Source of the DNA: Chiua virens
Lineage: Eukaryota > Basidiomycota > Agaricomycetes > Boletales > Boletaceae
Direction of reading: 5' to 3'
Assembly (NCBI GenBank): GCA_019787685.1
Contig: JAHNUO010000002.1
Coordinates: 434,001 to 498,000 of the forward strand
Length of the DNA: 64,000 nt
Shown here: one piece after another, positions 12,467 through 62,985 of the stretch
How positions within the stretch are numbered: the first letter of the stretch is position 1
Layout of the letters: the number at the start of each line of letters is the position of its first letter
The notes under the pieces: generated by a model
The model's input: only the letters and a program-made list of their open reading frames with translations
What the model was told of the DNA's origin: nothing
The model's database searches: none
Position numbers and translations under genes: made by a program

Positions 12467-14727
12467 TCAGACAGACTCAGAGGTACTGTCCTGGATCAAT
12501 TCAAAATTAGCCACAGCACCCAAAATCACCCCAGGTAGGATCAAATCGGAGGGGGGTATCGGGATCAAATACACCCTTCCAGTATGTTTATACATAGCAA
12601 ACGACAAAATGCTAATCCTGAAAATAGCATTCAGAATATGTAACAGTAACAAAGAACGAACGACACTTACATGCAAGACAAAGTCAATGTCAGCATCATC
12701 ATCCTCGGAGATCAAGAGTTCATTCTTGCCACCTTTATCCTGGGGTCTGCTGCATCAAATGGGGATGGTGAGCTATACTTGACATCCCAAATTGGGGGAC
12801 AATACTGTTCTTCATGAGGACCAGGAGCCAGCATCATGCAAACTTCTGGGAAACTGATAACATGATGGAAGCCTGCTTGTGCGAATAGCCAACAAGACCA
12901 GAATGCAAAGCAGGATGGTTAACACGATGAAGATCAGCCTGCTTAGTCCACTATTTTGCCTTCCACTCAAAAAAGGCCTGAGTATGTCACATCTCTTTCT
13001 CAAGGAGGACTTCTTTGTGCCACTGGATTGCTCGAGCACGAGCCCTACACCATTCGATGTGCACATCATCATGGATGTTTGCTGGATCATCAAGAGCTGA
13101 CTGATGTTGTGAGATTGTCCAAATCCAGGAAGGTTCATAGTGTCCTTGACTTTTCTCCCATTCCTTTGCCAGACCATGGATATCCACTGGGTAGAGAGGA
13201 TGAAATGAAGTCAACCATGAACTACAAGGGTCGTGTTTCTCAATGATAGCATAGGCATGATGGTAGGATTCAGCATGCAACTGGATCTGATTGTTGAAGT
13301 GAGAGATGACTGCTTGTGTGCGAGTGTTTGCCTTGTGTCCAGTGCTCGCAACTTGAACCTTCTTGAAGTGATACAATCCCTGGATAATCTGATGATGGTG
13401 GCAAACCTCGTTAAGACTATCCACCATTTGTGCAAGTCGAAGGTGCAGCTCTAGGGCAAGAAGATGCTGATTGTCTCCCGTGCTGAGCAAGGCTTTAGGG
13501 ACTGATGATGGAACCCACAAGTTCATTTCTTCCATTTTGTGACACAATGTATCATCCTCAGCAGAGGAGGACAAGGAAAGGCCAGATATGTAAGGCATGT
13601 ACACCATGTGGGCAGTACACATTGGGCAATGTGGTGACAAAGGGTATGGCTCCATTTCTGTATGCCCACGAGCTGAAGGGATGATACTTTCCCACCTAGC
13701 TGTTTGATCTGATTTTGAAGGCACCATCTAGTTTAGTATATGTAGTTAGTGAAAGCTGCAAGAGCATAAAATTCAAACCTACTGTTGGTCTTCTAGCTCC
13801 AGACTGACTGCCAGCAAGGAGCTCACACTCATTTCATGAACTGCAGGAGTATCAGTAGCCTGGCAGCTCTCTTCTCATGCTAGCTCCAATTGGACATCTG
13901 ACAGCGTAACACCTATAAACCAGTGTTAAATCCACATGGTACAACAGGGAGACAAGACACTTATGAGACTGTGGCTCCTCATAAGGATTTGGCCAGGTGT
14001 GACATTGTTCCCAAAGTACTATATTTGACACCCACTGGTTCCTCATATCCTCTGTGAACAATGCTGAGAAGTCAGCAAATATTTCTTCCTGCTTACGACA
14101 CATTCCGACTGCTTCAGTGTACTTCTTAGCAAGATATGAACCTGTCATATCATGTTTAAATCAGTTTACATGCCTAGACTTGAAACATACCTAGGGTAAC
14201 AATTTTCCTCCAGTTCCATGCACTTCAGTGATCATCCAGTGTCTCATGATGGGCATATGGTGACATCTTGCGAATACTAGTTGCAACTCCATTCATGTGT
14301 GCCCACTTGGTCTTGATGGCTTCACCACAAGTCTAGGTATAAAGTTCAATAAGAACTTTGACTGGTAATCATTTCCATGGTTGTGAAGGTGAAAAGGAGG
14401 AACAGCATAGTGGGTGTCGAGAGTGTCCATTGCAATATGACAAGGAGGTAGTGTCATACATGATATATAGTGTTGTAAGTGCAAGGCCAGCAAGTGTTGA
14501 GAAAATAATCCAGTCCATGTTGCAATACCTGAGAATAGTCAGTAAGATTCATCATGGCAATTTACACAACATACTTTTTACCCTTCTGCAAATCACAGAT
14601 ACCTTGTCCTCGCATGATGAGATGATGGGCACATGTCACTGCCCCTGTGCCTGATGCAATCCAACTCTGCTTATTGTGCGTCTTTGCATGTGCAATGGCA
14701 TCATGCTCAACCATACATGTGCTTGTC
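12467..14727 (-). pseudogene. KDZ transposase relic, C-terminal part
   Basis: On the minus strand from 14727, frames give NKQSWIASGTGAV and LIMRGQGICDLQKG, then EWAHMNGVATS and a DDHWSAWNWRKIV-like segment (the conserved DHW...NW block of KDZ transposases). A 246-aa open stretch (12987-13727) follows, holding the C-terminal helical region and WCRARARAIQWHKEVLLEKEM. An acidic tail lies near 12690. Several stops and frameshifts break it. The N-terminal part continues at 19044-20580, and the two halves meet exactly at the TTGTC target duplication of the inserted element B. KDZ transposases are DNA transposases common in Agaricomycetes. Confidence 0.85.
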
Positions 14728-15282
14728 TATTAGAGACTGTGCGACTCGGAGGTAGCCAACTCCGGATCTCCGGAGTTGTAACGTCGGACAGGACTTGGCT
14801 TCACCGTATGTGGTGCGCCCTTGTCACAGTCTGTCCCTATATTTCGGACGTGCAGAGAATGGAGGTAGATATATGACTCAACACATAAAGTGGAGTCGAG
14901 TGGAGTAAAGATTGTCAAGGTCTTATGGAGTGTTCGGAGTGAGTCATACAAATAAACTAATATTCAGACTAAGGGTACACAGTTGGGGTACTACAGTTTA
15001 TATACTCGGAGTGGAATGGAGATTAGTAACGGAGTTGGTAAGAACTGAGTAAGATGGAAGATTGGGAAACTACATAGCCGGAGGTAAGTTGGGTACTGAG
15101 AAAGCCGGAGCTGTGCTCATAAGCGAGACACAGGTTATGTACTAAAATAAAAGAGGAAACATATATACGTAACGGAGGTCCGGGGTCGCGGAGTTGCGTC
15201 CTGAGGGTAATCGACCCAGAGTTATGGTCTAAGAGGTACGGAGTTGTATCCGGAGGAATGGAGAATGGAGTGGTATATGACA
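14728..15282 (-). repeat. Element B LTR (3' LTR in sense orientation)
   Basis: 555 bp; the first bases read TATTAGAG where the partner has TGTTAGAG. It ends GGTATATGACA. On the minus strand a TATA box (TATATAAA, 14997-15004) lies about 31-33 nt upstream of TAGTCTGAATAT (14960-14971). Confidence 0.93.
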
Positions 15283-15298
15283 GTATCCCCCTTTTAGG
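15283..15298 (-). promoter_or_regulatory. Polypurine tract next to the 3' LTR of element B
   Basis: In sense orientation the tract reads GCCTAAAAGGGGGATAC and directly abuts the LTR. It is the expected plus-strand priming site for reverse transcription. A near-copy lies at 16511-16526. Confidence 0.75.
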
Positions 15299-15420
15299 CC
15301 GGAACCCTTGAAGGCCTTTAGCGAGGAACAATAGTCAAGCGGAGTCAAAGCGCGAACAAAGCGCGACTGGAGGTGACAGATGTGAGGAGTTTGAATTTGG
15401 AGTGTGGGTGACGTGTTCTG

Positions 15421-15428
15421 TATATAAG
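15421..15428 (+). promoter_or_regulatory. TATA box of the antisense gene
   Basis: TATATAAG lies 44 nt upstream of the ATG at 15472 in a CpG-rich context. It points antisense to the retroelement's own transcription, so the embedded gene seems to have its own promoter. Confidence 0.6.
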
Positions 15429-15471
15429 TCCGGCGGATGGCTGTTTCATTCCTTAACCATTAATTCCTACC

Positions 15472-16417
15472 ATGTCCGATATCAGCAACATCAAGGGGTG
15501 GGACGATGCGCGTCTCAAGGAATGCGACGATGACAGCAACGAGCTGTTCGACGCGAAGGTGATGTAGCGGCAACGACGGATGAAGGTGCGGAGAGAAGCG
15601 GAGGAGTGGAGGAAGGCGGAGGAAGCTGAGGAGGCACGCAAGGCTGAAGAGGCGAGACAAGGCAGAGGAGGCAGAGAAAGCGAGGAGGGCTGCGGAGGAG
15701 TGGAGGAAAGCGGAGGAGCGCGAGGTGCGAGAGGTCGAGGAGGCCAAGAAGAGGGTAAGTGGTTCAACAACGTCTGGCTTCTGGAGCTGACGGAGTTACT
15801 AGGCCGAGGAGGTCCGTGCGGAGCAGAGTGCTCCCAAGGAGAAGGGCAAGGAGAAGGAGAAGGCATGAGGGTCGGAGTGGGAGACATGCACTAGGTGCGA
15901 GGACCGAGGCCTGGAGTGCGTACTGGGCGTGGGGAGGAAGTCGACGGCTTGCGAGCCTTGTCGAGATGCCAAGGTGAAGTGTGAGAGGCCCGGAGAGGAG
16001 GTGATGGAGAAGAAGGTGCGCCAGAGGAAACAGGTGGAGGAATCAGAGGAGGTGCCAAAGTCGAAGAAGAAGGCGAGGACCGAGTCATTGTCCACTGGTC
16101 TGAGCGGGGCTCAGGTCTCGTCTCTCCCGGAGACGTTCGTGCAGGCGGCGGAGTTGTGGGCGGGGGTTGCGAAGCAGATGACGGAGGCCATAAGGGATCT
16201 CCAAGCGGCGATGAGGTCGCAAAACAGGCGTCTGGATTACCAGAACGCTCTGTTATTGAGGCTCGTGGAGCTGAAGGTGGAGGAGATGTACGGAGCGAAG
16301 TCGGAGGAGTCGGATGATGAGGATGTCGATGCGGAGGTGGGCGAAAAGGAGCTCGTGGAGATAGGCATGGAGGCGGAGATGGGTGACTCGGTGGATACGG
16401 AGGGAGAAGTAGAGTAG
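15472..16417 (+). pseudogene. Antisense gene in element B: coiled-coil protein with a Zn2Cys6-type cluster
   Basis: Starting at the ATG at 15472 (MSDISNIKGWDDARLKE), the protein has an acidic start. A long charged coiled coil of repeated KAEEA/RAAEEWRKAEE units follows (about 15580-15754), then a 48-bp intron (15755-15802). After it come a basic KEKGKEKEK stretch and a cysteine cluster spaced CX2CX6C-X10-CX2CX6C (15887-15979), matching the Zn2Cys6 pattern of fungal DNA-binding proteins. A basic region, a hydrophobic helix (about 16090-16290) and a strongly acidic C-terminus end it at 16417. This copy is damaged: TAG at codon 32, a frameshift near 15657 and TGA at 15866. From 15869 the frame is open for about 180 codons. 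I recall similar coiled-coil/cysteine proteins in Agaricomycete genomes only as hypotheticals. DNA or RNA binding is inference. Confidence 0.7.
15755..15802 (+). other. Spliceosomal intron in the antisense gene
   Basis: Donor GTAAGT, branch-like CTGAC and acceptor TTACTAG over 48 bp. Splicing joins two codons in phase 0 (AAGAAGAGG to GCCGAGGAG) and continues the coiled-coil frame. An intron on this strand would not be removed from the retroelement's own (minus-sense) genomic RNA, which explains how it survives retrotransposition. Confidence 0.7.
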
Positions 16418-16510
16418 AACATGTACTTATGAAGTTGCAAAAGGCAACAAGATATGATTCTCGCAGGAAAACAGAGTGAGCGGAGATGGAAGTGTGGGGA
16501 ACAGGAGGTC

Positions 16511-16526
16511 CATATCCCCCTCTTAG
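16511..16526 (-). promoter_or_regulatory. Second, internal polypurine tract in element B
   Basis: In sense orientation it reads GCCTAAGAGGGGGATA, 14 of 16 bases or better against the LTR-adjacent tract at 15283-15298. The flanks beyond it are also similar (a GTCTAGTAGCGGAGG-like run). It marks the far side of the antisense gene block. Confidence 0.55.
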
Positions 16527-17201
16527 GCTAGACGTCCCAGTGTCTAGTAGCGGAGGTGGACGGAGGGAGTTCGGGGTACGAAGGAGAAGGGATGTGAGTG
16601 CCTTTCAAAGTAATCCAGGAAAGAACGGTATACGTCACTGAGGTTCCATGGAGTTTTCAATGTCGAGCAAGGAGGGATGACCGGAGTAACCTAGAGGATC
16701 GGAGTAATAGCTGGAGTTGCCAGAGGGAACACCCAAAGGCACAGAGTCGAGCTCATATGTGTTGGCGTCCATGTTCAGGTGAACAGAAAAAAGTTACTGT
16801 CCATAACTTGTCACTCAACGGAGTGTTAGCGAGTGGATCAGTGGTATCCAAGAATCAAGAGAACAGGGGGACCCAACAGAGGTGCATGGAGTGCGGTCGG
16901 AGTGATCATAGGGTAAGGTCGGAGGAGTTATGAGGAGGTCGGAGATGAGAGTCAGGGTAAACAGAGTTGAGGCTCGGGGTAAATGGAGTTCTGAGGAGTG
17001 GAGGGGTAGGGAGTATCGAGGTGAAGAATCATGTCCTCGAACTCTCTCGGGGTGAAAAGAAGAAGGGAGGTGACGACATAAACTGAAGTTCATGAGGTCC
17101 AGAGTGTTGAAAAGACTGGATGCGTTGGTTCTGGGTATACTCCTTGTTGTGCAGTAGAAGATAACGCTCCTTCAGAATACACGGAGTCAGGGGTCGGAGG
17201 C
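16527..17201. other. Element B internal region without recognised pol
   Basis: This lies between gag and the internal purine tract, where protease/RT would be expected. Minus frames are short and serine/proline-rich (for example 16815-17093), and none shows D-S/T-G or RT motifs. Confidence 0.5.
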
Positions 17202-18470
17202 TTAGTCGGTGTCCTCGGAGGAGGATGCCGGAGTTGCTCGCGTAGCACAGGGCTTCGCAGAGCGAGAAGTGGACTTGGGGCAGTCCTTAGCCTTATGTCC
17301 TGGGAGGCCACAGAACATACATAAGAAGAGGTTGAAACGTCTCTGACGTTCGATGGAGGTGAGTTTACCGTCTTCACCGAGTGGTGATTCAGGTTCTTGG
17401 GGTGTGGAGGTAGACTCGTCGGAGTCGTCGCAGTCATATTCTTGGTTGGATTTGGAGATAGGAGGTGATGTGGATGTGGAGTTTCTGGAGGATTGCACGG
17501 AGGCGTGATTAATCTCGGAGTTGCGCTCCCAATGGCGAGCATCGATAGCTTGCGCCATGTAACGCATTTCAGAGAGCCTTGGGGGTTTGCCTACGCGACA
17601 GATTTCGTCTTTGATGCAGTTTGGCAGACCATTGTAGAAATGGGTACGGAGAGCACCTTCTCCATAACCATGGACTTGAGCAGCAAAGCAGTTAAACTCA
17701 ACTACATATTTGTTGATTCTTTGTCCATCACTCATGGACAGATCTCGGAGTTTGTACTCTGCATCTCCCACCGGATCATGCGGATAAAAGTTCATCTAGA
17801 GTTCCAGAACGAAGTCGGTGTAGTGATCTTTCCAGAGGGGACGGGAGACAGAGGGGTCAGATTCGAGGAGGTCGGGTTCAAACCATTCAAGGGCAATTCC
17901 TGTCAGATAAGACAGTGCAAATGTGACTTTGGCATGGTCTGAGCGGAAAGCCTTGGGACGGTCCTGGAAGTTCAACTCGCATTGAACAAGAAAGACTCGG
18001 AGTTTGCAGGGACTTGTCCCATCAAACTGATCAGGTTCTCTGACTTTAGTGCGAGGGGAGGAGCTAGAGGAGGGGTGACAAGAGGTGCGAGTGAGACTTT
18101 GTATTGCATTTGTCAATCGCCCATAGGTATCATCAGAGGCAAGTTCGGTTTCGGGGTCAGAGAAGTCATCTCTGGAGTTGGGTTCATCAGAGGGATGTCC
18201 CCTGGAGGAGCCTGGAATACTCAGAGATTGATTACGGGAAGACAGAGTTCATGCACCCAGGAATACAGGTGCTTGAGAGGCAGAGGATGCGATAAGTCGA
18301 GTGGAGAAACCTTGGAAATCTTCGATGACTTCAGGAGTTCGTCGGTGACTGAGGAGGTTTCTGAGGGATTGGATGCAGGTAGTGTCAGATAGGTTCAAGG
18401 TAGAGATACCAGTAGTACTGGTCTGAGGGCGGGTGTGAGAGGACATAGGTCGTGAGGTGACTGATAACAA
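17202..18470 (-). pseudogene. Element B gag
   Basis: Two open pieces lie in one frame, separated by a single TAG at 17796-17798. The upstream piece (18116-17799) carries REPDQFDGTSPCKLRVFLVQ and ALEWFEPDLLE, typical of the Ty3-type retrotransposon gag domain. The downstream piece (17795-17202) continues with DPVGDAEYKLRDLSMSDGQR, INKYVVEFNCFAAQ and a zinc knuckle CMFCGLPGHKAKDC (CX2CX4HX4C). The leader frame up to the ATG at 18470 is serine/threonine-rich and may be the true N-terminus after a frameshift. TAG could derive from CAG by C-to-T change. Its product would be the capsid/nucleocapsid of the particle. Confidence 0.88.
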
Positions 18471-18474
18471 GAAG

Positions 18475-18486
18475 TAGTCTGAATAT
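18475..18486 (-). other. Self-complementary primer-binding site of element B
   Basis: The sense sequence ATATTCAGACTA starts 2 nt after the 5' LTR end at 18489. It is the exact reverse complement of the LTR sense segment TAGTCTGAATAT (18721-18732), which begins about 31-33 nt after the TATA box (18758-18765). No match to a usual tRNA 3' end (TGG...) is seen. Confidence 0.75.
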
Positions 18487-18488
18487 AC

Positions 18489-19043
18489 TGTTAGAGACCG
18501 TGTGACTCGGAGGTAGCCAACTCCAGATCTCTGGAGTTGTAACGTCGGACAGGACTTGGCTTCACCGTATGTGGTGCGCCCTTGTCACAGTCTGTCCCTA
18601 TATTTCGGATGTGCGGAGAACGGAGGTAGATATATGACTCAACACATAAAGTGGAGTCGAGCAGAGTAAAGACCGTCAAGGTCTTACGGAGTGTTCGGAG
18701 TGAGTCGTACAAATAAACTAATATTCAGACTAAGGGTACACAGTTGGGGTACTACAGTTTATATACTCAGAGTGGAATGGAGATTAGTAACGGAGTTGGT
18801 AAGAACTGAGTAAGACGGAAGATTGGGAAACTACATAGCCGGAGGTAAGTTGGGTACTGAGAAAGCCGGAGCTGTGCTCATAAGCGAGACACAGGTTATG
18901 TACTAAAATAAAAGAGGAAACATATATACGTAACGGAGGTCCAGGGTTGCAGAGGTGCGTCCTGAGGGTGATCGACCCAGAGTTATGGTCTAAGAGGTAT
19001 GGAGTTGTATCCAGAGGAACGGAGAATGGAGCGGTATATGACA
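18489..19043 (-). repeat. Element B LTR (5' LTR in sense orientation)
   Basis: 555 bp, starting TGTTAGAGACC and ending TATATGACA in plus coordinates. It is followed by the TTGTC target duplication. Related copies: 29866-30217 (partial), 39594-40163 and 62400-62985. Confidence 0.93.
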
Positions 19044-20580
19044 TTGTCTTGCAGTGGATCAATGAGCAAACAAGCCACTTAAATGTATCTGAATACATAC
19101 CTCTCATTGCTCGCCAGCCTGGGAGACATATTCCTGGAATGGCTGTTCTTTGCAGAAGTAAAGCCATCCATTGGTCAATGGGACATCTTTAAGATTACGA
19201 CTTTTCAATGCCAACTTGAAGTTTGTATCCAATGAGAGATAAAGTGCATACAAAAACCTACAAATGCATTATATTCCTGCAATAACCCAAGGGTGGAAGA
19301 GACATTACTTTGATGCAATACCCACCTTGTCCCAACTATCTGGCAGGTTTTGACCTGGATGTGGGCATGCAGGGCACTCCACAGCCAAAGAACCTGGAGT
19401 TGTAGCTTCAATGCTGGCTGGATCATGTGCACGACCACCACGCTTGAGACACATGAGATTTTGCCACTCATGCACAGTACGTGTAAATTCCTTGTAGCCA
19501 TGCTATGACAATACATCAATACCAGTCATACTTAGATTCAGAGAATATACACACAAAGGTCTTTGAGAGCCCAGCATTGTCTGTCTGCCTCACAAGGGTC
19601 TGGTAGAAGTCATGGGCTGTGGTTTTACTCTGCAATATCAACTCATGGAAGTGTGAAAGTACATTGAATGCAAATGCTGTCTGAGGTCTTTCTCCAGACA
19701 CAGGGAACCAGCCAGTACAAAGCAGTCGTATGTCATGATGAGGTGCTTGAGAACATCCACAGAACTGGATGGCCAAGGTGTGAATCATATTCATATTGCC
19801 AATTGGTAACTGGGTTTGAGTAGATGGATAGGGACAAGAATGCCCTTGATGGCCAAGCTGGACACACATCCCAAGTGTGGAGAGACTTGTCTTTCTTCAA
19901 AATACAACTGTCCATTCCTTAAACATCTTAATCAGCCTGAGTGGAACACCAAGACTATGATGACACAACCAATGACTCACCTTGATCAGATGAAGAGGAA
20001 GTAGTTTATGGGCAGTGAGCATACAATCCCTACAGGTCAACTCATGGCCAAAGCAAGTCAGACACTGAAGTGTACTGACACTGGGACATGATGAACAAGT
20101 CTGATCATTGACATGGTCACCTAGTCCATCCAATCATAATAACTTATCCAAGTATTCAGCCCTTCGTGGAAGCCACTCAGCAAGCTTAGTCTATCATAAA
20201 GTGAATGAGTCAATCCAAAAAGAAAGGAAAGAATTTACTGCTTGGGTACATGAAGCACGGTTTTTTAGTTGAATTTGTGATGACATCACAATACTACTAG
20301 TAGGCATCAACTCCATTGTCGGCTGTGACTCAACAATGCTATGATTCACCAATGGGATGGGAGTTACATTCACTGTAACCAAAGATAGCTGCTGCTTGAT
20401 ACATCCTGATCGGGAGTGAGTGTTGAATGAACGAATTGTTTGCTCCCCCAGCAAACAAGGACCATGACACTCTACTGGCATAATGCCACTAGAAGCAACA
20501 TGATCAGTGACAAGGAACAAATATTTACATATTATGCACAAGTATGATATACAGAAACTTATATACAAAAGCAAGAACAA
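19044..20580 (-). pseudogene. KDZ transposase relic, N-terminal part with CxC2-like cluster
   Basis: On the minus strand from about 20580 a low-complexity leader runs into SFLSFWIDSF. Then 20133-19897 gives the CxC2-type cysteine cluster: DQTCSSCPSVSTLQCLTCF, LTCRDCMLTAHKLLPLHLI. Next, 19869-19516 gives FCGCSQAPHHDIRLLCTGWF and TAFAFNVLSHFHELILQSK, then FYQTLVRQTDNAGLSKT, all in the order known for KDZ proteins of Agaricomycetes. Around 19480-19330 a shifted frame gives VECPACPHPGQNLPDSW. Frameshifts and stops make it a pseudogene. It continues across the element B insertion at 14727. Confidence 0.87.
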
Positions 20581-39289: not shown

Positions 39290-41318
39290 TATCAGCACCC
39301 TCCTTGCACTGCTGAGAAAACTCTCCTTGCAATTTGTTCTGCTTGCTGAAAGCATTCACCCATGGACTATAAGAACTTTTTCAAGGTCATCAAATTGTTG
39401 AGTTTAAACAGTGTTATTGAACCAGTTTGGATAGACTGGGCACTGTTGAGCCCTTCCAACTTTATTACTGTTGAACTGTTACACCAGTTTCATCAGTTCA
39501 CATGGGACCATGATGTAAAGCAGTATGTCACCATTCTTGGTGTCAATGAGCTTAACTTTTACTTTTCCATTATTTAGATATTATTGGGTTACCTGTTAGA
39601 GGTAGCCAACTCTGGATCTCCAGAGTTGTAGCATTGGATAGGACTTGGCTTCACCGTATGTGGTGCACCCTTGTCACAGTCTGTCCCTATATTTCGGATG
39701 TGCAGAGAACAGAGGTAAATGTAAGACTCAACACATAAAGTGGAGTCGAGTGGAGTAAAGACCATCAAGGTCTTATGGAGTGTTCAGAGTGAGTCATACA
39801 AATAAACTAATATTCAGACTAAAGTTACAATCAAAGTAACTATGGTTTATATACTCGGAGGAAACATAATGATTAGTCATGGAGCAAGGAGATGAGTAAT
39901 ACAGAGAAATAGAGAATGACTAATTCTGAGTAAGATGGGAGATCAGGAAACAAGATAACCAGAGGTAAGTCGGGTACTGAGGAAGCTGGAGCTATGCTCA
40001 TAAGCGAGACACAGGTTATGTACTAAAACAAAAGAGGAAACATATATATGTAATGGAGGTCTGGGATCATGGAGTTGTGTCCTGAGGGAGATCAACCCAG
40101 AGTTATCATCTAAGAGAACCTGAGTTATATCCAGAGGAACGGAGAACAGAGTGGTATATGACATTACCGAGCATTTGATGATGATTCCAAATATTCAAGC
40201 TGAAGCAGGTTATAGGCCATGATCACTGTGCTGTACAGTGGTATATCATAGGTGCCACAGCTGATGGTGTCCCTTGGAGATTCCTTATTACCATCTGCTC
40301 ACTTCTAGATTTCTGTTATCTGGCACAAGCATCTACATTCATGACTCATTCCCTGGATCACATTGCCTAGGCACTACAGGAATTCTATGATCACAAAGAT
40401 GCAATTCACCAAGGTACCTGAGACAACTGGGAACTTCCTAAACTTGAACTGCTTCAAAGTGTAGTCCCTGGCATCTGTCAATCTGGCACTGCAGTGCAGT
40501 GGAGTACCAATGTCATGGAGCATGCCTACATTAATGAAATCAAGATTCTGGCACATGTAGAAAACAATCAAAATTACTGCAATCAGATTGCCTGTCACCT
40601 CAACAGACTTAACAAATGTTTCAGGTTAGATTTATGTAGTTACATACATGAAGGAGCAGCACTGTGTGGACAGAGCAGATAAAGAACTTTCTGAGAAGTG
40701 GGAGGAGGATCACAAAGCTGATGCAGAGCTGATCACCATCTCTGAATATGTTGCTCCAACATGCCCAATCATGCACTACTTCTCTGCTGTGCATGCCCTT
40801 CTGAATGGATCTCACCTCAATGCTCTACAACCTTTCTGGACATTTGCCACCTTGACTACTGCATTTTACATTGCACTCAAGCCATCATTGCAGCTCACTC
40901 TTGTAGAAGCTGCCATCAAGTAAAGTTACCTGATTTCGTTCCCACTGTCACCTCTTTCATCACACAGCAGGACTACAGCTTGGTACTGATGGCACTGGAT
41001 AGCATCAAGCTACAAGTTTTGCACACCATGCATGGGCAGGAAATGTCTTATCATACTCATGATTTGGAACTGCCCTAGACCCTTTGTGCTGTTCTCCTGT
41101 CCACCAAAAATCCCTATGATAAATATGATTTGGTGACTGTTGGCAATCAACCAGAAAGTGATTGGCCAAAGCAAGGTTAGAAGCACATGCTGTCACCCAA
41201 CTCTGACTTATATTTAAACTTCTCCATTGTGAGGTTTCCATCATATACATTCAATGCTTCAATGTGGGGAGCATGAGCATGGTAACTGGAATGTGCCTTC
41301 TCAAGTGAGCAGTGAGGG
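39290..41318 (+). pseudogene. Plavaka transposase relic 2 (split by a solo LTR)
   Basis: Before the LTR at 39594: DYKNFFKVIKLLSLNSVIEP, HQFHQFTWDHDVKQYVT and NELNFYFSI. After it, continuing across the TTACC duplication: YRAFDDDSKYS, then in mixed frames VPWRFLITICSLLDF, ALQEFYDHKDAIH, NWELPKLELLQSVVPGI, VQWSTNVMEHAYINEIKI and NNQNYCNQIACHLNRLNKCF. The C-terminal part is open at 40648-40923 (TCPIMHYFSAVHALLNG, TTAFYIALKPSLQLTLVEAA) and fades by 41260. The motif order is that of Plavaka/CACTA-like fungal DNA transposases. Stops and shifts make it inactive. Confidence 0.82.
39594..40163 (-). mobile_element. Solo LTR, family B, in a Plavaka relic
   Basis: Starts TGTTAGAGG and ends GGTATATGACA, flanked by perfect TTACC duplications (39589-39593, 40164-40168). 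The first 15 or so bases after TGTTAGAG seen in the 18489 copy are deleted. Orientation follows element B (sense minus). Confidence 0.93.
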
Positions 41319-53729: not shown

Positions 53730-54449
53730 TGTTACGATAGTTCCGGGTAGGACCTAGCGTAGCCGCAAAAGCGCCAAGTACCAAGTGGCTGCGATAACTC
53801 AAACAACCACCACTTGATACGTGGTGCGCTGAAGAGTCGAACGAGGGTTTCTGGTCAGCTGAATGCTACCAGAGAGACGAGTGAAAACTCAGGCGTTGCT
53901 GAGAGTTGTCCTGTTGGGAATCTATACCCGAGGGACAGTCAAGGGTCGAGGGTTGGCTGCGATGAGCCCGAGTGGATAAGGGACTAGGAGTAGTCCAGTC
54001 GAGTGGTCACAGGCGCTGGGCGAGTGGAGCAGAGATACTCAGCTAGTATTGCGGAGATCAAGACTAGAGTACAGGAGTATCGCTGTAGGGTATTTATACT
54101 ACAGAACTGCACACGGACCAAGTAACTAAAAGGGGTAGGCCAGAAGAGCGGAAGGGTTAAAGGGCCAAAAGGAGTGCGCAGTAATCAAAAGGGGAAATCG
54201 TACGATGCGATGGCAGCGGACGATGACGAAGATGGAATGACAAATGCGAAGCCATCGGAGGATGACGAGAAGAGAATGAGTAAGTGCGATGCCATCGGAT
54301 GATGACGAGAATAGAAGGACGTAAGCATCCAGGTAAAGCCGGTGCGGAGATACAAGCGTGAAAGGAAAGCGTACGGATGAACGTACGAGGATACCTAGGT
54401 ATCGAGTGTAGTGAAGAAGTACAAGAGACGAAAGAAAGAAATTGTAACA
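53730..54449 (-). repeat. Element A 3' LTR (sense orientation)
   Basis: 720 bp, TGTTACGATAG to TTGTAACA. It carries the same TATA box (54091-54098) and TAGTCTTGATCT segment (54055-54066 on minus) as the other LTR. Confidence 0.97.
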
Positions 54450-54462
54450 TTACCCCCGGAGT
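54450..54462 (-). promoter_or_regulatory. Putative polypurine tract of element A
   Basis: Sense ACTCCGGGGGTAA abuts the 3' LTR. It is a weak purine tract compared with elements B and C, but in the right place. Confidence 0.45.
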
Positions 54463-54491
54463 ACGATCAAAGCACCAAGCGAAGATCATCT

Positions 54492-56222
54492 CTAGAAATT
54501 GGACGCATCACGGACAGGACTGCCGGTGATATTGGCGTAACCCTCGTCGTCGATAGGGTCATCACATGGGGAGACCGAGCGTCGGCCAGGAGACTCGGAA
54601 CGTTGTCGCGCATGGCGGCGGGCTCGTTGAGGTGGGGGTATAGGGAGTATGGAGCGGCCATTGCGGCGCGACGAAGAAGACGAGTTCGTTGAAGAGGACG
54701 ACGTGGAGGGGATAGCGGGGCGAGGCGAGCGTCGGGTCCAAGTGTTTCCGGCGGCCACGGGAGTAAGCCGGTTGGCAAGGGGGATGCGTGCGTGTACCCG
54801 AGGAGGTTGTCCAGGGCAGCGGGATTGGATGTGTCCAGGGGCCCAGGTAAGACAGATGGGGCACTGGTACATGGGGCATTCAACCCGGACATGGCCAAGC
54901 TTCCTACATTCGAAGCAGGCTTCGTGGTATCGGGGGTGATCGTCGGGGAGGGATACCTGACCGGTCCAAAACATCAGTTCGGCTTCGGCGCGGTTGCAAG
55001 CAAGCATTTCCTCTTCCGTGAAGGGAGCAGAGGATGCGGATGGGGTAGACGGGGTTCGAGGGGAAGGAGCCATATGGCGGGCGAGGTCCGCTTGGTAGCG
55101 GTGGAGGTCCTCCAGGAATTCGCCCATCTGCATTTGGTGGAGGGTATGCTCGATGTAGGCGCGGATCCGGTCGTGGATCTGGCCGGTTACCGCAGAGAGG
55201 AGGTGGGAGTGACGATCTCGACCGAGGAGGTCGGACTGGACGAAGGTAAGGCGCTCACACTGCAAGTACGCCAGATATAGAGCGTTGAGCGGCGAGTTCA
55301 AGTCTAGGTGATGTTCAATGGGGAAGGCCATCGCTGGGTCAAGGATGAGTTCGCGCATGCGGCGAAAGTACTCGGGGGTCGAGGAGGAAGAGCGGATGGT
55401 GTGGGAGTGGTAAGGCAGGTCTACCGCCTGGAGAGGAGAACGAACGCGACTAGGGCGCTCAGAAGAAACAGGCCATTGAGAAGGAGCTCCCCATCCTGCA
55501 GAGGCAACTGCTGAAACAGCAGGAGAAGGGGGTCGGGTGGACTCTGTGAGGGAGGATTCGGTGGAGAGGGTGGATGCATTGGATACGGGGGTAGCCGGCG
55601 GGGGAAGAGGTAGGTGAGGAATAGACGCAGTGGGGGTGAAGATGGGGACCGGGTGGATGATTTCGTTTTCGAAGTCGGGGGTAGAGCAGGAGCGGTAGGT
55701 CATTATCGCCTTGACGGACACTGGTGGAGGTGGTCGAAGTGGGGAGCGAGGTGGTCGAGGTGGTACCGAGGGGAAATCCTTCGAGTGGGTCCGCTTATAA
55801 GCGTCGACCGTCTCCTTGGCGTTTCCTAAGTTAGACTCGGGTTCCCATGAGTCATCGGCGGCGGAGTACCCTTTCCATCGGATCAGGAACTTGCGGTTGA
55901 GCGGGTTCCGCGTGTGGCGTAAGATCCGCTCAATTTCGTATTCCTCTTCTCCAGCGATAAGGTCAGGTGGGGGTTTCGGGAAGTTCGGGCCGTAGGTTTC
56001 TGTTTCGCGATAGGGCGATAACAGCGAAGCGTGAAAGACCGGATGGATCTTCCAGGTCTTAGGGAGGCGGAGTCGGTAGGTGAGCGGAGAAAGGACTTCC
56101 GTGATGGAGAAGGGTCCTTCTCGGCGAGATGCGAGTTTTGGGGAGATGAGCTCCCGTTTCAGGTTGCGGGCTTCGAGCCATACTTGGTCTCCTTTAGCAA
56201 ACGGTTTGAATTTGCGGAAGGA
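54492..56222 (-). CDS. Element A pol continuation: integrase tail, chromodomain and zinc-knuckle extension
   Basis: This is the same frame as the 1130-aa pol ORF, separated only by the TGA at 56223-56225. From 56222 it reads FRKFKPFAKGDQVWLEARNL (integrase C-terminal domain), RLRLPKTWKIHPVFHASLL, and a chromodomain (EEYEIERILRHTRNPLNRKF, IRWKGYSAADDSWEPESNL; about 55953-55800). It does not stop there. Counting from the internal Met at 55721, a proline/serine-rich linker (1-115) leads to a helical region (120-215), a knuckle CFECRKLGHVRVEC (269-282, CX2CX4HX4C), a second CX2CX6HX4C cluster (287-302), and a basic, serine/arginine-rich tail to residue 409. Chromodomains direct integration to marked chromatin; the knuckles suggest nucleic-acid binding. 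I do not know this extension from described chromoviruses. Confidence 0.87.
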   Translation of the reverse strand, partial: SFRKFKPFAKGDQVWLEARNLKRELISPKLASRREGPFSITEVLSPLTYRLRLPKTWKIHPVFHASLLSPYRETETYGPNFPKPPPDLIAGEEEYEIERILRHTRNPLNRKFLIRWKGYSAADDSWEPESNLGNAKETVDAYKRTHSKDFPSVPPRPPRSPLRPPPPVSVKAIMTYRSCSTPDFENEIIHPVPIFTPTASIPHLPLPPPATPVSNASTLSTESSLTESTRPPSPAVSAVASAGWGAPSQWPVSSERPSRVRSPLQAVDLPYHSHTIRSSSSTPEYFRRMRELILDPAMAFPIEHHLDLNSPLNALYLAYLQCERLTFVQSDLLGRDRHSHLLSAVTGQIHDRIRAYIEHTLHQMQMGEFLEDLHRYQADLARHMAPSPRTPSTPSASSAPFTEEEMLACNRAEAELMFWTGQVSLPDDHPRYHEACFECRKLGHVRVECPMYQCPICLTWAPGHIQSRCPGQPPRVHARIPLANRLTPVAAGNTWTRRSPRPAIPSTSSSSTNSSSSSRRNGRSILPIPPPQRARRHARQRSESPGRRSVSPCDDPIDDEGYANITGSPVRDASNF

Positions 56223-56225
56223 TCA
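56223..56225 (-). other. Single in-frame TGA in pol
   Basis: QAMKA-TGA-SFRKFKPF. The codon could come from CGA by one CpG transition, the same change class that separates the LTRs. Alternatively it is a readthrough stop. Confidence 0.8.
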
Positions 56226-59200
56226 AGCCTTCATGGCTTGGCGGGCGAGCTCATGTGCCGCGAGGGCTTCATCGCGGGCAGCGGATAGGACATCAAGGCG
56301 TTCCTTGACAGCAGGGAGGTTGGTGTCGGCGATGATCGTGGGTAGGGGACGGGGTTCATATCCCATCATCAAGAAGAACGGCGATTTGTTGGTGACGGAG
56401 TGAGGACGGTGGTTATGTGCGAATTCGGCCATAGGAAGTAAGTCGGCCCATTTCTCCGGGTTGTTTTGGCAATACATGCGGAGATAGGTTTCTACCTCTT
56501 GGTTTACTCGTTCTGTCTCACCATCGGATTGGGGATGGTAGGCGGTCGACAGAGAAAGGCGGTATCCGATAAGCCGGGAGAGTTCCTTTGCAAAAGCAGA
56601 AGCAAACTGCGGGCCTCGGTCGGATATGATCTTGTCATAGAGGCCGAATCGGGTGTAGACTTTGTGGAAAAAAAGGCAGGCAATACCTGCGGAGTCGGCG
56701 GTTTTTACCGTGGGGCAAAGAATTACCCCCTTCGTAAGGCCGTGGTCGACCACGACCATGAGAGAATCGTAGCCCTCCGCAGACGTGGGTAGATCCGTGA
56801 TGAGATCCACGGACACATTCTGGAAGGGACGGGAACATGCGGAGGGTATCGGAGACAAAGGAGGGGCGGTCGGGTGGGTGTTAACCTTGTGCTGTTGACA
56901 GGCAGCACAACCGGAGACGTAGGAGCGGACGAAGGAGGCAAGGCCCGGCCACCAGAATTCGGCGGCGACGAGCTGGCGAGTTTTCAAGTAGCCAGGATGT
57001 CCCGCGGCGTGAGAGTCGTGGTGTCGGGCAACGATCTGTCGCCGGAGTTCGAGGTTAGGGGGAACATAGACGCGGCCCTGGTAAGTCAGGACGCCGGCGT
57101 CATATTTCCAGTCCGAGAGGCGGGCACGGAATGAAGACGGTAGGCCGCCGTCGAGGGCATTGAGAGTCTCCAAAACCAGCGGGTCGTCGGTGGAAGACTT
57201 GGCAATCAAAGATTGCAAGTCTAGGGTCACTAGGTTTACGAACACGTCATCCGGAAGGAGCGTAACGTTTTCGTTGTCGGAGTCGGAGGTGATATGGTCC
57301 GGTCGGCGCGAGAGTGCATCCGGACCATCGAGGAGTTTTCCGGGGACGTGAGAGAAGGTGAGGTCGAAGTCGGCGAGGTCGAGTAGCCAACGAGCTTGTC
57401 GGCGGTTGAGGTTCTGTGGTTGACGGAAGTACGTCAGGTTCTTGTGGTCGGAGAAGACCGTGACAGGGTGTGCGCTTCCTCGGAGGTGGTGGCGCCAGGC
57501 TTTGAGGGACCGGATGACTGCAAGGAGTTCTCGGTCGTAGATGTCGTAGTTCCTTTCTGCAGCGTTGAACGACTGAGAAAGGTAGGAGCACGGCTTCCAG
57601 TCTCCGTTTGTGTCGGTCTGGAGGAGTACGCCCCCGGTTGCATACTTGGATGCGTCCGTGGCGATAGCGAAGGGTCGAGCGGTATCGGGAAACCGGAGTA
57701 CTGGATCCGTGGTAAAAGCCCTTTTGAGGCGTTCGAAGGTGTCGACCTGGGCAGATCCCCAAGTCCAAGGAGCGTCTTTCTTGGTGAGATCGACGAGGGG
57801 GCGAGCGATGGTCGAGTAGTCGGGAATAAACCGACGGTAGAAGTTTGCGAAGCCCATGAACGATCGAACGTCTTTGAGCTTGGTGGGGGTTGGCCAGTCG
57901 GCAATACCGGCGACTTTGACGGGGTCCATGGCTAGTTCGCCTGGTCGGGCGATCATCCCAAGGTATTCTACTTCGGTGGTGGCGAAGTGGCATTTCTCTA
58001 GTTTCAAGTGAAGGTCTAGTTCCTTCATGCGGGCGAGAACGCGTTTGGTGCGCTCCGTGTGAGTTGCCTCGTCTTCGGAGAAGATGAGGAGGTCATCCAT
58101 GTAAATGACGAGCCATCCCTCGGCGATCATATCGCGGAAAGAGTCGTTCATGAAGCGCTGGAATGTCGCAGGGGAATTGGTCAGTCCAAAGAACATGACC
58201 GTGGGTTCGAAGAGGCCGCGATGAGTGATGAAGGCGGCTTTCCATTGGTGTCCGTCCTTGATGCGGACATTGTTGTAACCCCATCGGACGTCGAACTTGG
58301 TGAACAGTTTGGCATCCTTTAACTTGTCGACGAGGTCGGAGATAAGGGGAAGGGGGTAGGCGTCATGAACAGTGTGTTCGTTAACGTAGCGATAATCTTG
58401 GCAAGGACGGAGTTTGCCATCCTTCTTTTTAACGAAGAAGAATGGGGAAGCTTGTGGAGAGTTGGAAGGACGGATCTTGCCATTGGCCAGGTGTTCGTCG
58501 ATGAAGTCGTCGGTGGCCTTGCGCTCGTCTGGGGACAAGGGGTAGACCTTTCCGACCTTTGGTACAAAGGTGTCTTTCAGATGGATTTCGTGGTCACAGG
58601 ACCTCGAGGGAGGCATCTGATTGAAGGGTTCCTTCGCGAATACGGATTCGAATTCCGAGTATTCCGAAGGGAGGGTGACCTGGGGTTTCTTCGCTGCTGC
58701 TGCGAGGGCGGTAGTGTTGGTGAGCTTCTCGGGTTGAGTGGTCCGAACGAAGCGTTGTCCTGCGCGCATTACGCGATTGACCGAATGTTGCACGGATTGG
58801 GTCGTGAAACGATGCCCAGTTTCGGTGCCGAGGTAGTCGTAGAGTTTGCCGTCCCAAATGGGATCGACATCGAGGTGGCGAACGGGACGGATTGGCGGTG
58901 GGTGAGTGAGTCTGGCGGAGTGTTTGGGTTCGTCGGTAGTGATGGGAGGTAGGTCTGGTTCCGGGGCAGAGACGGTGATGGTTTTTGCTACCCAATCGAT
59001 GATCAGGTTGGTTGCCTTAAGCCAAGGGAGACCAAGGATGACGTTTTCAGAACCACAGTGGATGATGTGGAACTTAATGCGTTGGAGCACTCCGCCAAGA
59101 GCGATCCGGAGGGTGGTGGTGAATTTGATGTCACCGTTCTTGTTCATGGTGGAGTCCACGTTCCTAACCGGGATTGGTTTCGGAAGGCGCTCCTTCGGGA

Positions 59201-59408
59201 ACTTGTGTTTCTGGACGAAATTCCAGTCGATGCAGTTGATTCCGGCCCCAGAGTCAATAAGGGCGCGGGTGTCGACGTCTTGAGAAGTAGCCGTTACGTT
59301 CAATCTAACAGGGATTTGCATAGATTGAGACGAAAGTTCAGCTACAAGTACATGGGTACGTGAACGGGAAGATACCGGCGTCGAATCGGTCTTCCTCCTT
59401 AAAAACCC
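56226..59408 (-). CDS. pol: Element A pol: protease, reverse transcriptase, RNase H, integrase
   Basis: Entered by -1 frameshift at 59402-59408; the open frame extends back to a Met at 59615 (1130 aa), which is used for numbering. Protease DSG at 121-123 (TRALIDSGAGINCID). RT: FDVRWGYNNVRI at 441-452, FGLTNSPATFQRFMN at 476-490, YMDD at 505-508, FANFYRRF near 589. RNase H: ATDASKYATGG at 652-662 and YDRELLAV. Integrase: HHCC zinc site H869, H873, C903, C906; catalytic D937, D999, E1035 with 35 residues between the last two (ISDRGPQF, HPQSDGETERVNQ). All key residues are present, so the enzyme looks functional up to the TGA at residue 1131. The chromodomain follows it in the same frame. Confidence 0.96.
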
Positions 59409-60613
59409 GTGACCGGAGTGGTCACCTTGTTGACGCTCATGGCGTCCTCGTCGTCCTCCTCTACTTCTACTAAGGCGGGGATAGGTTCTGGTTTCGAGGC
59501 GGTCTTTCGAACCTTCTTGGAGGACAACGGGGGGTTTTTGGTCGAGAACGCCGTGCAGGCGGACGTTTGGTGCCCGGGTTTGCGACAGCGGAAACAAAGT
59601 TTTTGTTCGAAGCATCGCTTTCGCTCTGCCTCGGTAAGTTTTGGAACATAGATGGCGTCTACGTCCATTGCGTCGGGGTCTCGCTCCTTCTTGCGAGGCG
59701 GCTGTTCATGGTATACCACGGCAGCGGCGGGTTTCTTGTTTCGGCGAGCAATCTCGTCGGCGCGTTCCCATTGGGTCTTGAAGTGGATGGCTTGGGTATA
59801 CCACTTATCGATCGTGGTAGGGACCGTATCCATCCCTTGGATCCTCCTCATAAGAGAAGGTGGGAGTCCGGCGGCGAAGAAGTTGATGAGGACCGAGTCA
59901 GAGCCGGCGAGCCCTGCGGTGACGACCTTGTTGCGGAAGGAGGAGATATACGAGGGGACGTCCTCGTTTTTAGTGGAGCGGGTGGTGGATAACCAGGCGA
60001 TGGCGTCACCCTTGGTGTCATGGTGTTCGAAGTCCTTTCGGAACTCCGTTTGCCAGTCGAGCCAGGTCCCAAAAGATCTAGCGGTGATGGACTTGGCGCG
60101 GAACGTGTCGGCCCAAGTCAGAGCGGATCCTTCGGTCATGAAAGAGAGGGCAAAAGCCACTCGTTTGTTTTCGGTGTTGTACACATCTTCGTTAACGAAG
60201 AGGTAGGTGGCGACGTCGTTGAGCCAGGGTATGGCGCGGTCGTAAGAGCCGTTGAAGGCCGATGGTTTTCCGAGACGAAGTTCAACTGCCTTGTTAGACA
60301 TGTTGGTCGAGGTGGTGGTCGTTCGTACGGGTGGTGGTACGATGGATGGGTTTGGGTTCCGGATAGATGGTGGTCCGGGGTTCGGCCTTCGTGGGGTCGT
60401 AGGGGACGCGAAGGTGGCAAGTGCGGGGAGGTCGAGTGTTTGATGAAGACGGTCAGCTAGTCGCTGGGTTTCGTCTTCTGAGTCAGGGTGTTCGACGTTG
60501 ATGTCGAGGTCTGCTTCCTGAGGTTCAGAAAGTGGGGTCGAGGGTTCAGGGTTTTCGTCAGATAAATCTGACGACGGGGTGTGGGTGGCTCGGAGGTTCC
60601 AAGCGGGAATCAA
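59399..60613 (-). CDS. gag: Element A gag
   Basis: 404 aa from the ATG at 60613, 67 nt after the primer site. The N-terminal third is acidic and proline-rich (SSDLSDENPEPSTPLSEPQ). The capsid-like domain follows (VELRLGKPSAFNGSYDRAIP, LSFMTEGSALTWADTFRAKS, FEHHDTKGDAIAWLSTTRS). The nucleocapsid knuckle CFRCRKPGHQTSAC (CX2CX4HX4C) is at residues 340-353. The acidic end VEVEEDDEDAMS leads to VTTPVTGF and TAA. Pol starts in the -1 frame at that stop. No damage is visible, so this gag should be able to form particles and could also package non-autonomous elements such as B. Confidence 0.95.
   Translation of the reverse strand: MIPAWNLRATHTPSSDLSDENPEPSTPLSEPQEADLDINVEHPDSEDETQRLADRLHQTLDLPALATFASPTTPRRPNPGPPSIRNPNPSIVPPPVRTTTTSTNMSNKAVELRLGKPSAFNGSYDRAIPWLNDVATYLFVNEDVYNTENKRVAFALSFMTEGSALTWADTFRAKSITARSFGTWLDWQTEFRKDFEHHDTKGDAIAWLSTTRSTKNEDVPSYISSFRNKVVTAGLAGSDSVLINFFAAGLPPSLMRRIQGMDTVPTTIDKWYTQAIHFKTQWERADEIARRNKKPAAAVVYHEQPPRKKERDPDAMDVDAIYVPKLTEAERKRCFEQKLCFRCRKPGHQTSACTAFSTKNPPLSSKKVRKTASKPEPIPALVEVEEDDEDAMSVNKVTTPVTGF
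59402..59408 (-). promoter_or_regulatory. -1 ribosomal frameshift heptamer GGGTTTT at the gag stop
   Basis: The gag frame reads ACG GGT TTT TAA. The heptamer G-GGT-TTT fits the X-XXY-YYZ rule exactly, and slipping one base back continues as G-F-L-R-R-K into pol. Pol lies in the -1 frame (offset of 998 nt between the two ORF starts). Confidence 0.8.
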
Positions 60614-60680
60614 AGTTGGACGGGTTGGGGGTCGTCCGGCAATGGTGGGCAGCTGGCTGCGCGAAGGCAGGCTGTATTGG

Positions 60681-60692
60681 TAGTCTTGATCT
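60681..60692 (-). other. Self-complementary primer-binding site of element A
   Basis: Sense AGATCAAGACTA, 2 nt after the 5' LTR end at 60695. It is the exact reverse complement of TAGTCTTGATCT in the LTR (61020-61031, minus), which begins 32 nt downstream of the TATA box, where the RNA should start. This is the arrangement used by Tf1 for self-priming. No tRNA-type TGG site is present. Confidence 0.82.
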
Positions 60693-60694
60693 TA

Positions 60695-61414
60695 TGTTAC
60701 GATAGTTCCGGGTAGGACCTAGCGTAGCCGCAAAAGCGCCAAGTACCAAGTGGCTGCGATAACTCAAACAACCACCACTTGATACGTGGTGCGCTGAAGA
60801 GTCGAACGAGGGTTTCTGGTCAGCTGAATGCTACCAGAGAGACGAGTGAAAACTCAGGCGTTGCTGAGAGTTGTCCTGTTGGGAATCTATACCCGAGGGA
60901 TGGTCAAGGGTCGAGGGTTGGCTGCGATGAGCCCGAGTGGATAAGGGACTAGGAGTAGTCCAGTCGAGTGGTCACAGGCGCTGGGCGAGTGGAGCAGAGA
61001 TACTCAGCTAGTATTGCGGAGATCAAGACTAGAGTACAGGAGTATCGCTGTAGGGTATTTATACTACAGAACTGCGCACGGACCAAGTAACTAAAAGGGG
61101 TAGGCCAGAAGAGCGGAAGGGTTAAAGGGCCAAAAGGAGTGCGCAGTAATCAAAAGGGGAAATCGTACGATGCGATGGCAGCGGACGATGACGAAGATGG
61201 AATGACAAATGCGAAGCCATCGGAGGATGACGAGAAGAGAATGAGTAAGTGCGATGCCATCGGATGATGACGAGAATAGAAGGACGTAAGCATCCGGGTA
61301 AAGCCGGTGCGGAGATACAAGCGTGAAAGGAAAGCGTACGGATGAACGTACGAGGATACCTAGGTATCGAGTGTAGTGAAGAAGTACAAGAGACGAAAGA
61401 AAGAAATTGTAACA
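60695..61414 (-). repeat. Element A 5' LTR (sense orientation)
   Basis: 720 bp, differing from the other LTR at positions 60901, 60902, 61076 and 61296 only. Confidence 0.97.
61056..61063 (-). promoter_or_regulatory. TATA box of element A
   Basis: Sense TATAAATA, first T at 61063. The inferred start of the RNA is at about 61031. Confidence 0.75.
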
Positions 61415-62399: not shown

Positions 62400-62985
62400 T
62401 GTTAGAGACCATGTGACTTGGAGGTAGCCAACTCCAGATCTCTGGAGTTGTAGTGTTGGACAGGACTTGGCTTCATCATATGTGGTGCACCCTTGTCACA
62501 GTCTGTCCCTATATTTCAGATGTACAGAGAATGGAGGTAGATGTAAGACTCAACACATAAAATGGAGTCAAGTGGAGTAAAGACCATCAAGGTCTTATGG
62601 AGTGTTCAGAGTGAGTCATACAAATAAACTAATATTCAGACTAAAGTTACAATCAAAGTAACTACGGTTTATATACTCAGAGGAAACATAATGATTAGTC
62701 ACAGAGCAAGGAGATGAGTAATATGGAGAAACAGAGAATGACTAATTCTGAGTAAGACAGGAGATTGGGAAACAAGATAACCAGAGGTAAGTTGGGTACT
62801 GAGGAAGCCGGAGCTGTGCTCGTAAGCAAGACACAGGTTATGTACTAAAACAAAAGAGGAAACATATATACATAATGGAGATCCAGGATCACAGAGTTGT
62901 GTCCTGAGGGAGATCGACCCAGAGTTATTGTCTAAGAGAACCAGAATTATATCTGGAGGAATGGAGAATGGAGCGGTATATGACA
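62400..62985 (-). mobile_element. Solo LTR, family B, in the Plavaka gene
   Basis: TGTTAGAGACC to TATATGACA, 586 bp, flanked by GCAGA (62395-62399) and GCAAA (62986-62990), a 4/5 duplication with one G-to-A change. Many CG sites of the 18489 copy are TG/CA here. Confidence 0.88.

Follow-up and report, generated by a model that had tools for sequence, protein, structure and literature searches.

An antisense gene with a zinc-cluster-like domain in a self-priming Ty3/gypsy lineage of Chiua virens: a candidate own-lineage regulator

A decayed element and its antisense gene

The window (the whole stretch of 64,000 nucleotides analysed here, from the bolete Chiua virens) contains a complete non-autonomous long terminal repeat (LTR) element at 14728-19043, which lies in minus sense and carries on the plus strand a gene that is antisense to the element itself. 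We refer to it as the window element (element B). It is bounded by target-site duplications TTGTC, read from the sequence at 14723-14727 on the left and 19044-19048 on the right. Its LTRs, both on the minus strand, are 555 bp each and 95.7% identical (24 of the 552 aligned sites differ, 19 of them by CpG transitions); the 5' LTR is at 18489-19043, and the 3' LTR, at 14728-15282, starts with TA rather than TG. Three further minus-strand features lie between them: a primer-binding site (PBS; 18475-18486), whose 12 nt pair perfectly with the LTR of the same element; gag, with a Ty3-type capsid and a CCHC knuckle (17202-18446); and a polypurine tract (PPT) beside the LTR (15283-15300). No pol is found in the element.

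The antisense gene has a TATA box, TATATAAG (15421-15428), 51 nt before the ATG at 15472. Exon 1 (15472-15754) encodes a helix rich in E, K, R and A. It is followed by a phase-0 intron, 48 nt long in this copy (15755-15802; GTAAGT...CTGAC...TAG), and by exon 2 (15803-16417), which encodes a Zn2Cys6-like cluster, a basic stretch, a helix and an acidic C-terminus. The cysteines of the cluster (15887-15982) are spaced CX2CX6C-X10-CX2CX6C, with the halves swapped relative to Pfam Zn_clus. All of these features are on the plus strand. A first-pass annotation had listed the coordinates, TATA box, ATG, intron, cysteine spacing, TTGTC duplications and minus-sense LTR element, and direct reading of the sequence confirms them all. 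The window copy is nevertheless decayed and dead. The antisense gene is a pseudogene: exon 1 is interrupted by TAG in its codon 32 (15565-15567) and, at 283 nt, has suffered a net loss of 2 nt relative to the 285 nt of most intact copies, and exon 2 is interrupted by TGA in its codon 22 (15866-15868). The gag frame is also broken, by in-frame stops in codons 66 and 217.

Copies in the genome and an autonomous relative

We searched the genome of the same fungus (48.3 Mb, 136 contigs) in six frames. The antisense gene is found at no fewer than 68 loci, at least 38 of them in the gag-only family to which the window element belongs and at least 30 of a second type, found with an unbroken relative as query; these counts are lower bounds, the grouping of the second type is our own and a few small fragments are not counted. 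In the gag-only family, an LTR stands in register at 36 of the 38 loci and the gag side is present at 33 of 38 (limit 1.5 kb). The full copies share the same order: LTR, approximately 190 bp, exon 1, intron, exon 2, approximately 780 bp, gag, 43 bp, LTR. Among the exceptions, L019 has neither LTR nor gag side; L025 has no LTR in the short stretch examined, its exon 1 and LTR being found past an insertion (L041, L034); and L021, L029, L051 and L053 have no gag side within 1.5 kb, that of L051 sitting past an insertion. A TATA box occurs between -60 and -40 at all 36 loci where the alignment covers exon 1 from the first base onwards, a set that includes dead copies and the autonomous L054 (see below), and at exactly -51 in 32 of them. 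The polypurine tract TATCCCCCTTTTAGGC is exact in 27 of 36 loci examined, and L054 differs by one C for T. These observations support the view, already put forward in the first-pass annotation, that the antisense gene is a real passenger of LTR elements and is stably inherited with them; homologues lying mainly outside LTR elements, named there as the result that would speak against it, are not what we find in this genome. Later insertions have split the antisense genes of L041 (C9:199500-209400), L051 and L053. The exons of L041 are separated by an element whose pol (C9:202551) belongs to a different Ty3/gypsy lineage.

The gene is not peculiar to the gag-only element, as had been supposed, for an autonomous gag-pol relative has it too. 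This relative, L054 (with L065), has Pfam matches to a Ty3-type gag, zinc knuckle, protease, reverse transcriptase (RT), RNase H, integrase and Tf2-type SH3 domain, and its protease, RT, RNase H and integrase stand in the order of Ty3/gypsy chromoviruses. The C-terminus of pol gives a chromodomain match (E = 2.5e-5) of 24.6 bits, against a Pfam cut-off of 25.1. L054 has LTRs of 570 bp with a single difference between them and a target duplication GATGG; between pol and the 3' LTR it carries an antisense open reading frame (ORF) of 268 amino acids that is unbroken. This young autonomous element lies inside a tandem array with units of approximately 86 bp (GATGGATCAGCATCCTTCTGGAAG...; L065 828-1201 and the left flank of L054).

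The association with this lineage is close in both directions. Among 29 C-terminal pieces of lineage pol (at least 72% identity), 28 have the antisense gene tail-to-tail on the opposite strand, with a gap of 38-46 nt in 20 pieces and 102-939 nt in 8. The 29 pieces represent 27 loci, and the gene is present at 26, the sole exception being C15:249400; six further pol rows were left out, as they are other parts of pol genes already counted. Conversely, lineage pol is found at 26 of the 30 second-type gene loci. For pol matches of other Ty3/gypsy elements (at most 40% identity), a copy of the gene lies within 3 kb in the corresponding direction in 1 of 113 cases, 2,919 bp away, and none of the 113 scored matches has the gene adjoining pol. 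Within this genome and the matches scored, the antisense gene is restricted to one Ty3/gypsy lineage.

Priming signals tie the two kinds of element together. The PBS, right inside the 5' LTR, contains ATATTCAGACTA, and it is perfectly complementary to the LTR of the element that carries it, over 12 nt in the window element and 11 nt in L054/L065; in the window, the LTR partner is at 14960-14971, where ATATTCAGACTA is read on the plus strand and the element-sense strand is complementary to the PBS. Because PBS and PPT are nearly letter-identical between the gag-only family and L054, it is plausible that an autonomous relative could mobilise the gag-only family. Self-priming by a PBS complementary to the own LTR is a group trait of Tf1/sushi elements. 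The Chiua lineage resembles them in the 11-12 nt complementarity and in the order RT, RNase H, integrase, putative chromodomain, and differs in having the additional antisense gene; we know of no antisense gene in Tf1.

In the gag-only family the antisense gene is flanked by two PPT-like tracts, in the window element the PPT at 15283-15300 and a second tract at 16513-16528 on the gag side (minus strand, TATCCCCCTCTTAGGC when read on the plus strand). Of the 35 rows examined, which stand for 34 distinct loci because L025 and L041 belong to a single copy, 33 have a recognisable second tract, in 31 of them without any change; it is missing from L019 and L021. By eye, no PPT-like tract is seen between the antisense gene and pol in L054. 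The paired tracts could be a central PPT arrangement or a scar of the origin of the gag-only family.

Other LTR sequences are also present in the window. Two solo LTRs of the same family (82% each) lie at 39594-40163, with a TTACC duplication on either side, and at 62402-62985, with flanks GCAGA and GCAAA (one mismatch). A different young Ty3/gypsy element occupies 53730-61414, with LTRs of 720 bp that are 99.4% identical and with minus-strand ORFs for gag and pol; the antisense-gene searches give no match within it.

Intron, selection and encoded protein

The intron is shared by 32 distinct gag-only copies, and is 47 nt long in 27 and 48 nt in 5. This set excludes the remainder of the 38 loci, namely L017, L019, L028, L051 and L053 (displaced ends) and L025/L041 (split by an insertion). 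The sequence GTRAGT is found in 30 of the 32, and AG and CTGAY in all. Ten of these copies have an unbroken spliced frame (291-310 amino acids), and all ten are interrupted if left unspliced. In the autonomous type, the same intron is recognised by pattern in 8 of 10 genes (47-49 nt in seven; for L064 the pattern gave 42), and five of the ten have an unbroken spliced frame of 290-304 amino acids. These features support an intron of spliceosomal type, with splicing predicted. The first-pass annotation was right that such an intron survives retrotransposition because it is antisense to the genomic RNA. L054 lacks the intron together with approximately 21 neighbouring codons, so we rejected intron loss in favour of a deletion. 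A protein from an ENA contig (P0001) has VSLFGGRRGCWLTEQ at the intron position, which looks like the same intron retained.

Is the encoded protein under selection? In seven LTR pairs, CpG transitions account for 91 of 215 changes, or 0.277 per site compared with 0.033 for other transitions. Because CpG sites change approximately eight times faster, a raw ratio of nonsynonymous (N) to synonymous (S) change, dN/dS, is misleading, and we compare each ratio with a CpG-aware neutral expectation. Uncorrected, the NG86 ratio ranges from 0.17 to 0.33 among genes of the autonomous type and from 0.25 to 0.52 in comparisons across types; a raw value of 0.386 among intact copies was rejected as a sign of selection, since the CpG-aware expectation lowers the neutral ratio too. 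After correction, three disjoint pairs of the autonomous type give a ratio of approximately 0.6 (N 83, S 83, p = 0.0006). For recent gag-only copies the ratio is 0.81 (N 28, S 21, p = 0.28) in a comparison of seven intact, mutually non-independent copies with L015 (L022 and L052 were excluded for their length); L022 against L015 gives 0.90 (p = 0.38), and 16 broken gag-only copies of frame-compatible length give 0.86. Purifying selection is thus detectable in the autonomous type only, and the recent gag-only copies look neutral. The eightfold CpG change in the LTR pairs is suggestive of CpG methylation of the elements. Older copies are rich in non-CpG transitions as well (L043: 37 of 48 changes), and another process may contribute.

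The predicted protein is approximately 300 amino acids long, with a charged N-terminal helix, the swapped-half Zn2Cys6-like cluster, a basic stretch resembling a nuclear localisation signal, a long helix and an acidic tail. The six cysteines are conserved in the copies and across species. The canonical Zn2Cys6 spacing is CX2CX6C twice, and the antisense protein has it; together with the helices and the acidic region this resembles GAL4-type proteins (PF00172). It differs from them in the order of the halves: matches to the PF00172 profile are half-length, and of the scanned antisense proteins the window ORF alone scores above the cut-off (22.9 compared with 21). A PDB search with a single sequence gives no Zn2Cys6 match (best E = 0.16, squamosa promoter binding protein-like 7), nor does one with a profile (best E = 0.0076, designed constructs, with GCN4-named entries lower down). 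For a first structure model built from seven sequences (pLDDT 63.6, pTM 0.23), Foldseek gives two matches, one to a flagellar doublet chain at E = 7.1 and the other to the DNA-binding domain of Leu3 at E = 8.7; the absence of other families from the Foldseek and VIA-align lists carries no weight.

In a set of 5.8 billion proteins, the exon-2 piece alone finds no match, the autonomous-type protein finds 7 and an alignment query finds 163; among the 120 of these 163 that are listed, 117 are from Pisolithus tinctorius. We recognise no host orthologue. In Pisolithus, genes with zinc-finger domains are noted as being among the commonest near repeats (PMC10066745), which fits element-borne zinc-cluster genes. 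Many of the P. tinctorius proteins may be encoded by elements and have been taken for proteins of the host.

The word CGGAG and the role of the gene

Zn2Cys6 proteins favour CGG triplets. The word CGGAG, first spotted by eye and afterwards placed in a ranking of all 5-mers, forms an array across the entire window element (14728-19043), with 58 occurrences on the plus strand and 2 on the minus strand; the remaining 59.7 kb of the window have 40 and 10. The 570-nt LTR of L054 has 17 CGGAG/CTCCG on both strands together, compared with 1.7 in dinucleotide shuffles (maximum 5 of 200). The strand bias is 15:2 in the LTR and 63:9 in pol. Against a Markov expectation, CGGAG is the top 5-mer in the L054 LTR (z = 10.3), L054 pol (16.5), the gag-only LTR (13.1) and the post-gag region (7.6), whereas other words, with z = 3.7-6.7, rank first in the controls (the LTR of another Ty3 element, element C, and three pol stretches of other families). 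A strict coding null that keeps protein, codon usage and dinucleotides (100 randomisations) predicts 30.6 CGGAG (sd 3.4) in the lineage pol, compared with 63 observed, a number reached by none of the 100. The same null shows no clear excess in L066, L067 and L068 (reached by 100, 11 and 20 of 100). Element C and L067 are 96% alike, and we rejected treating the controls as four lineages; L066 and L068 are 66% alike. Across 77 sites, the core is five bases with no strong flank preference and no fixed spacing. In a diverged relative, L069 (798 bp of pol), there are 2 CGGAG and 14 forms one CpG transition away, where the corresponding stretch of L054 has 15 and 2.

How does this gene compare with known systems? 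The first-pass annotation knew of no described system of this kind, but a 2020 review covers accessory ORFs in antisense orientation between pol and the 3' LTR for maize Grande (gene23), rice RIRE2, Silene Retand, bean PvRetro13 and the fungal Boty, and calls their function in LTR retrotransposons unknown (PMC7264820). The Chiua gene shares with this group, termed aORF-3R, its position (L054; 28 of 29 pieces), its direction and its presence in most copies of the family (PMC7264820). As reviewed, the Grande antisense gene has its own promoter and a nuclear protein; the hosts are plants, the passages seen name SMC and transposase 28 domains and no Zn2Cys6-type cluster, and they make no mention of introns in the plant antisense genes (PMC7264820). 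Boty/brtn of Botrytis cinerea is likewise a fungal gag-pol element with an extra antisense gene, and it has a chromodomain (PMC4227169, PMC8365987); its host is an ascomycete, and we set it beside the Chiua gene by description only. Tcn1-like chromoviruses have an additional ORF of unknown function, listed with no direction (PMC2864245). Our literature search (titles and abstract openings, with most subscription papers outside it) brought up no antisense ORF of Zn2Cys6 type in a fungus and did not extend to CGGAG. An antisense accessory gene at the pol/3' LTR site is therefore already known as a kind, and what is new relative to the literature searched is the swapped-half Zn2Cys6-like cluster and the conserved intron in such a gene.

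Another comparison is with VANC of Arabidopsis VANDAL elements. VANDAL is a plant DNA transposon, while the Chiua gene belongs to a retroelement of a fungus and encodes a zinc cluster. In layout the two are closely parallel: in each, the element encodes an accessory protein and is enriched in a short word of its own in one orientation (PMC5735166, PMC10398659); the motifs of VANC21 are arrayed in one orientation (PMC5735166). CGGAG is likewise dense, one-sided and rare elsewhere, as judged against four elements of three families. For VANC, binding and loss of methylation have been shown (PMC5735166, PMC10398659); for the antisense protein, binding is a proposal.

We propose, with a probability of roughly one half, that the accessory gene of this self-priming, Tf1/sushi-like, putatively chromodomain-bearing Ty3/gypsy lineage encodes a CGGAG-binding regulator of its own lineage. 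The proposal starts from what is observed: the anatomy, the conservation, the restriction to one lineage within this genome, the signals of the intron and the saturation with the motif. Expression of the antisense gene would be driven by its own promoter and would not depend on the LTR, and the spliced product would yield a protein that enters the nucleus. There it would bind the CGG-core word CGGAG, spread in one orientation over the whole element, and would act on copies of its own lineage only, activating them or, by analogy with VANC, shielding them from host silencing. The gag-only family, a pol-less derivative, would retain gene and motif and rely on a relative for pol. By this analogy, the protein would be an element-specific DNA-binding regulator, probably activating or anti-silencing. 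It is tempting to go further, to an antisense self-recognition protein whose word is written in one orientation into the whole element, coding sequence included, and which de-represses or restrains only its own copies; it would be the equivalent of VANC in a retroelement and would serve, in trans, both an autonomous element and its pol-less derivative. This is a tentative idea, well short of even odds.

Several results weigh against the proposed CGGAG-binding regulator. The word is dense in coding sequence as well, unlike the VANC motifs, which lie in noncoding tandem repeats (PMC5735166, PMC10398659); CGGAG does not sit mainly in such repeats, pol and the antisense coding sequence being dense in it. 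Under the strict null its excess is weak in gag (14 compared with 10.6 expected, reached by 6 of 100) and in the antisense coding sequence (18 compared with 11.9, 2 of 100), where it comes partly from Ala-Glu codons, and element C pol has a slight excess too (18 compared with 13.9, 3 of 100). The four control Ty3 elements represent three families only. Between the LTRs of the two families (gag-only and autonomous), individual CGGAG sites are kept no better than other CpGs (23 of 34 compared with 29 of 41, p = 0.71). The recent gag-only copies look neutral, and the structure model is weak (pLDDT 63.5, pTM 0.27). Finally, four second-type loci (C3:1262589, C13:1029686, C6:880248, C15:614249) have no lineage pol in the scored matches, a weak observation given that 144 of 476 pol candidates were scored.

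The best survivor among the alternatives, possible but somewhat doubtful, is that the protein is an ordinary regulator (an activator, or an auto-repressor for copy-number control, that binds the LTR or leader only, or a nuclear-import helper for the pre-integration complex) and that CGGAG is unrelated to it. The last 50 residues are acidic (net -18 and -16) and a basic stretch follows the cluster; a nuclear protein with an accessory role has been proposed for the plant antisense ORFs (PMC7264820); and the 17 CGGAG/CTCCG within a single LTR would suit such a factor. However, an LTR-only factor needs no CGGAG in pol, where the word is dense beyond the strict coding null. The one-strand bias over the whole element is also what would be expected of a single RNA, and CGGAG (CUCCG in the genomic RNA) might be a signal at the RNA level, e.g., for packaging by Gag/nucleocapsid, with no relation to the antisense protein. 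We regard this as improbable: a directional DNA-binding protein explains the bias equally well, the one-way arrays of VANC21 being an example (PMC5735166), and no comparable word is found in the four other Ty3 elements.

It is very unlikely that the antisense transcript acts rather than the protein, through double-stranded or antisense RNA, with an incidental reading frame. Antisense transcription has been discussed as a regulator of such elements (PMC7264820), and tail-to-tail genes may yield overlapping transcripts, but the conservation of six cysteines across species and the depletion of nonsynonymous changes in the autonomous type (p = 0.0006) both point to the protein. We find it hard to credit a host gene captured once and carried neutrally since, as the breakage of the window copy and of 22 of the 32 gag-only copies and the near-neutral recent ratios (0.81-0.90) could suggest, given the gene's presence at 26 of 27 pol loci of the lineage, its many homologues in P. 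tinctorius, the selection in the autonomous type and the lack of a recognised host orthologue, even though 2 of 38 and 4 of 30 loci are without the expected element part in the sequence and matches covered.

This lineage offers an antisense accessory ORF that has a recognisable domain of DNA-binding type together with a candidate target word inside the element. If the binding is true, it would extend the sequence-specific self-recognition of transposons, as in VANC, to retroelements and to fungi. It would also suggest that many Boletales hypothetical proteins annotated as "Zn(2)-C6 fungal-type" are element genes and not host regulators.
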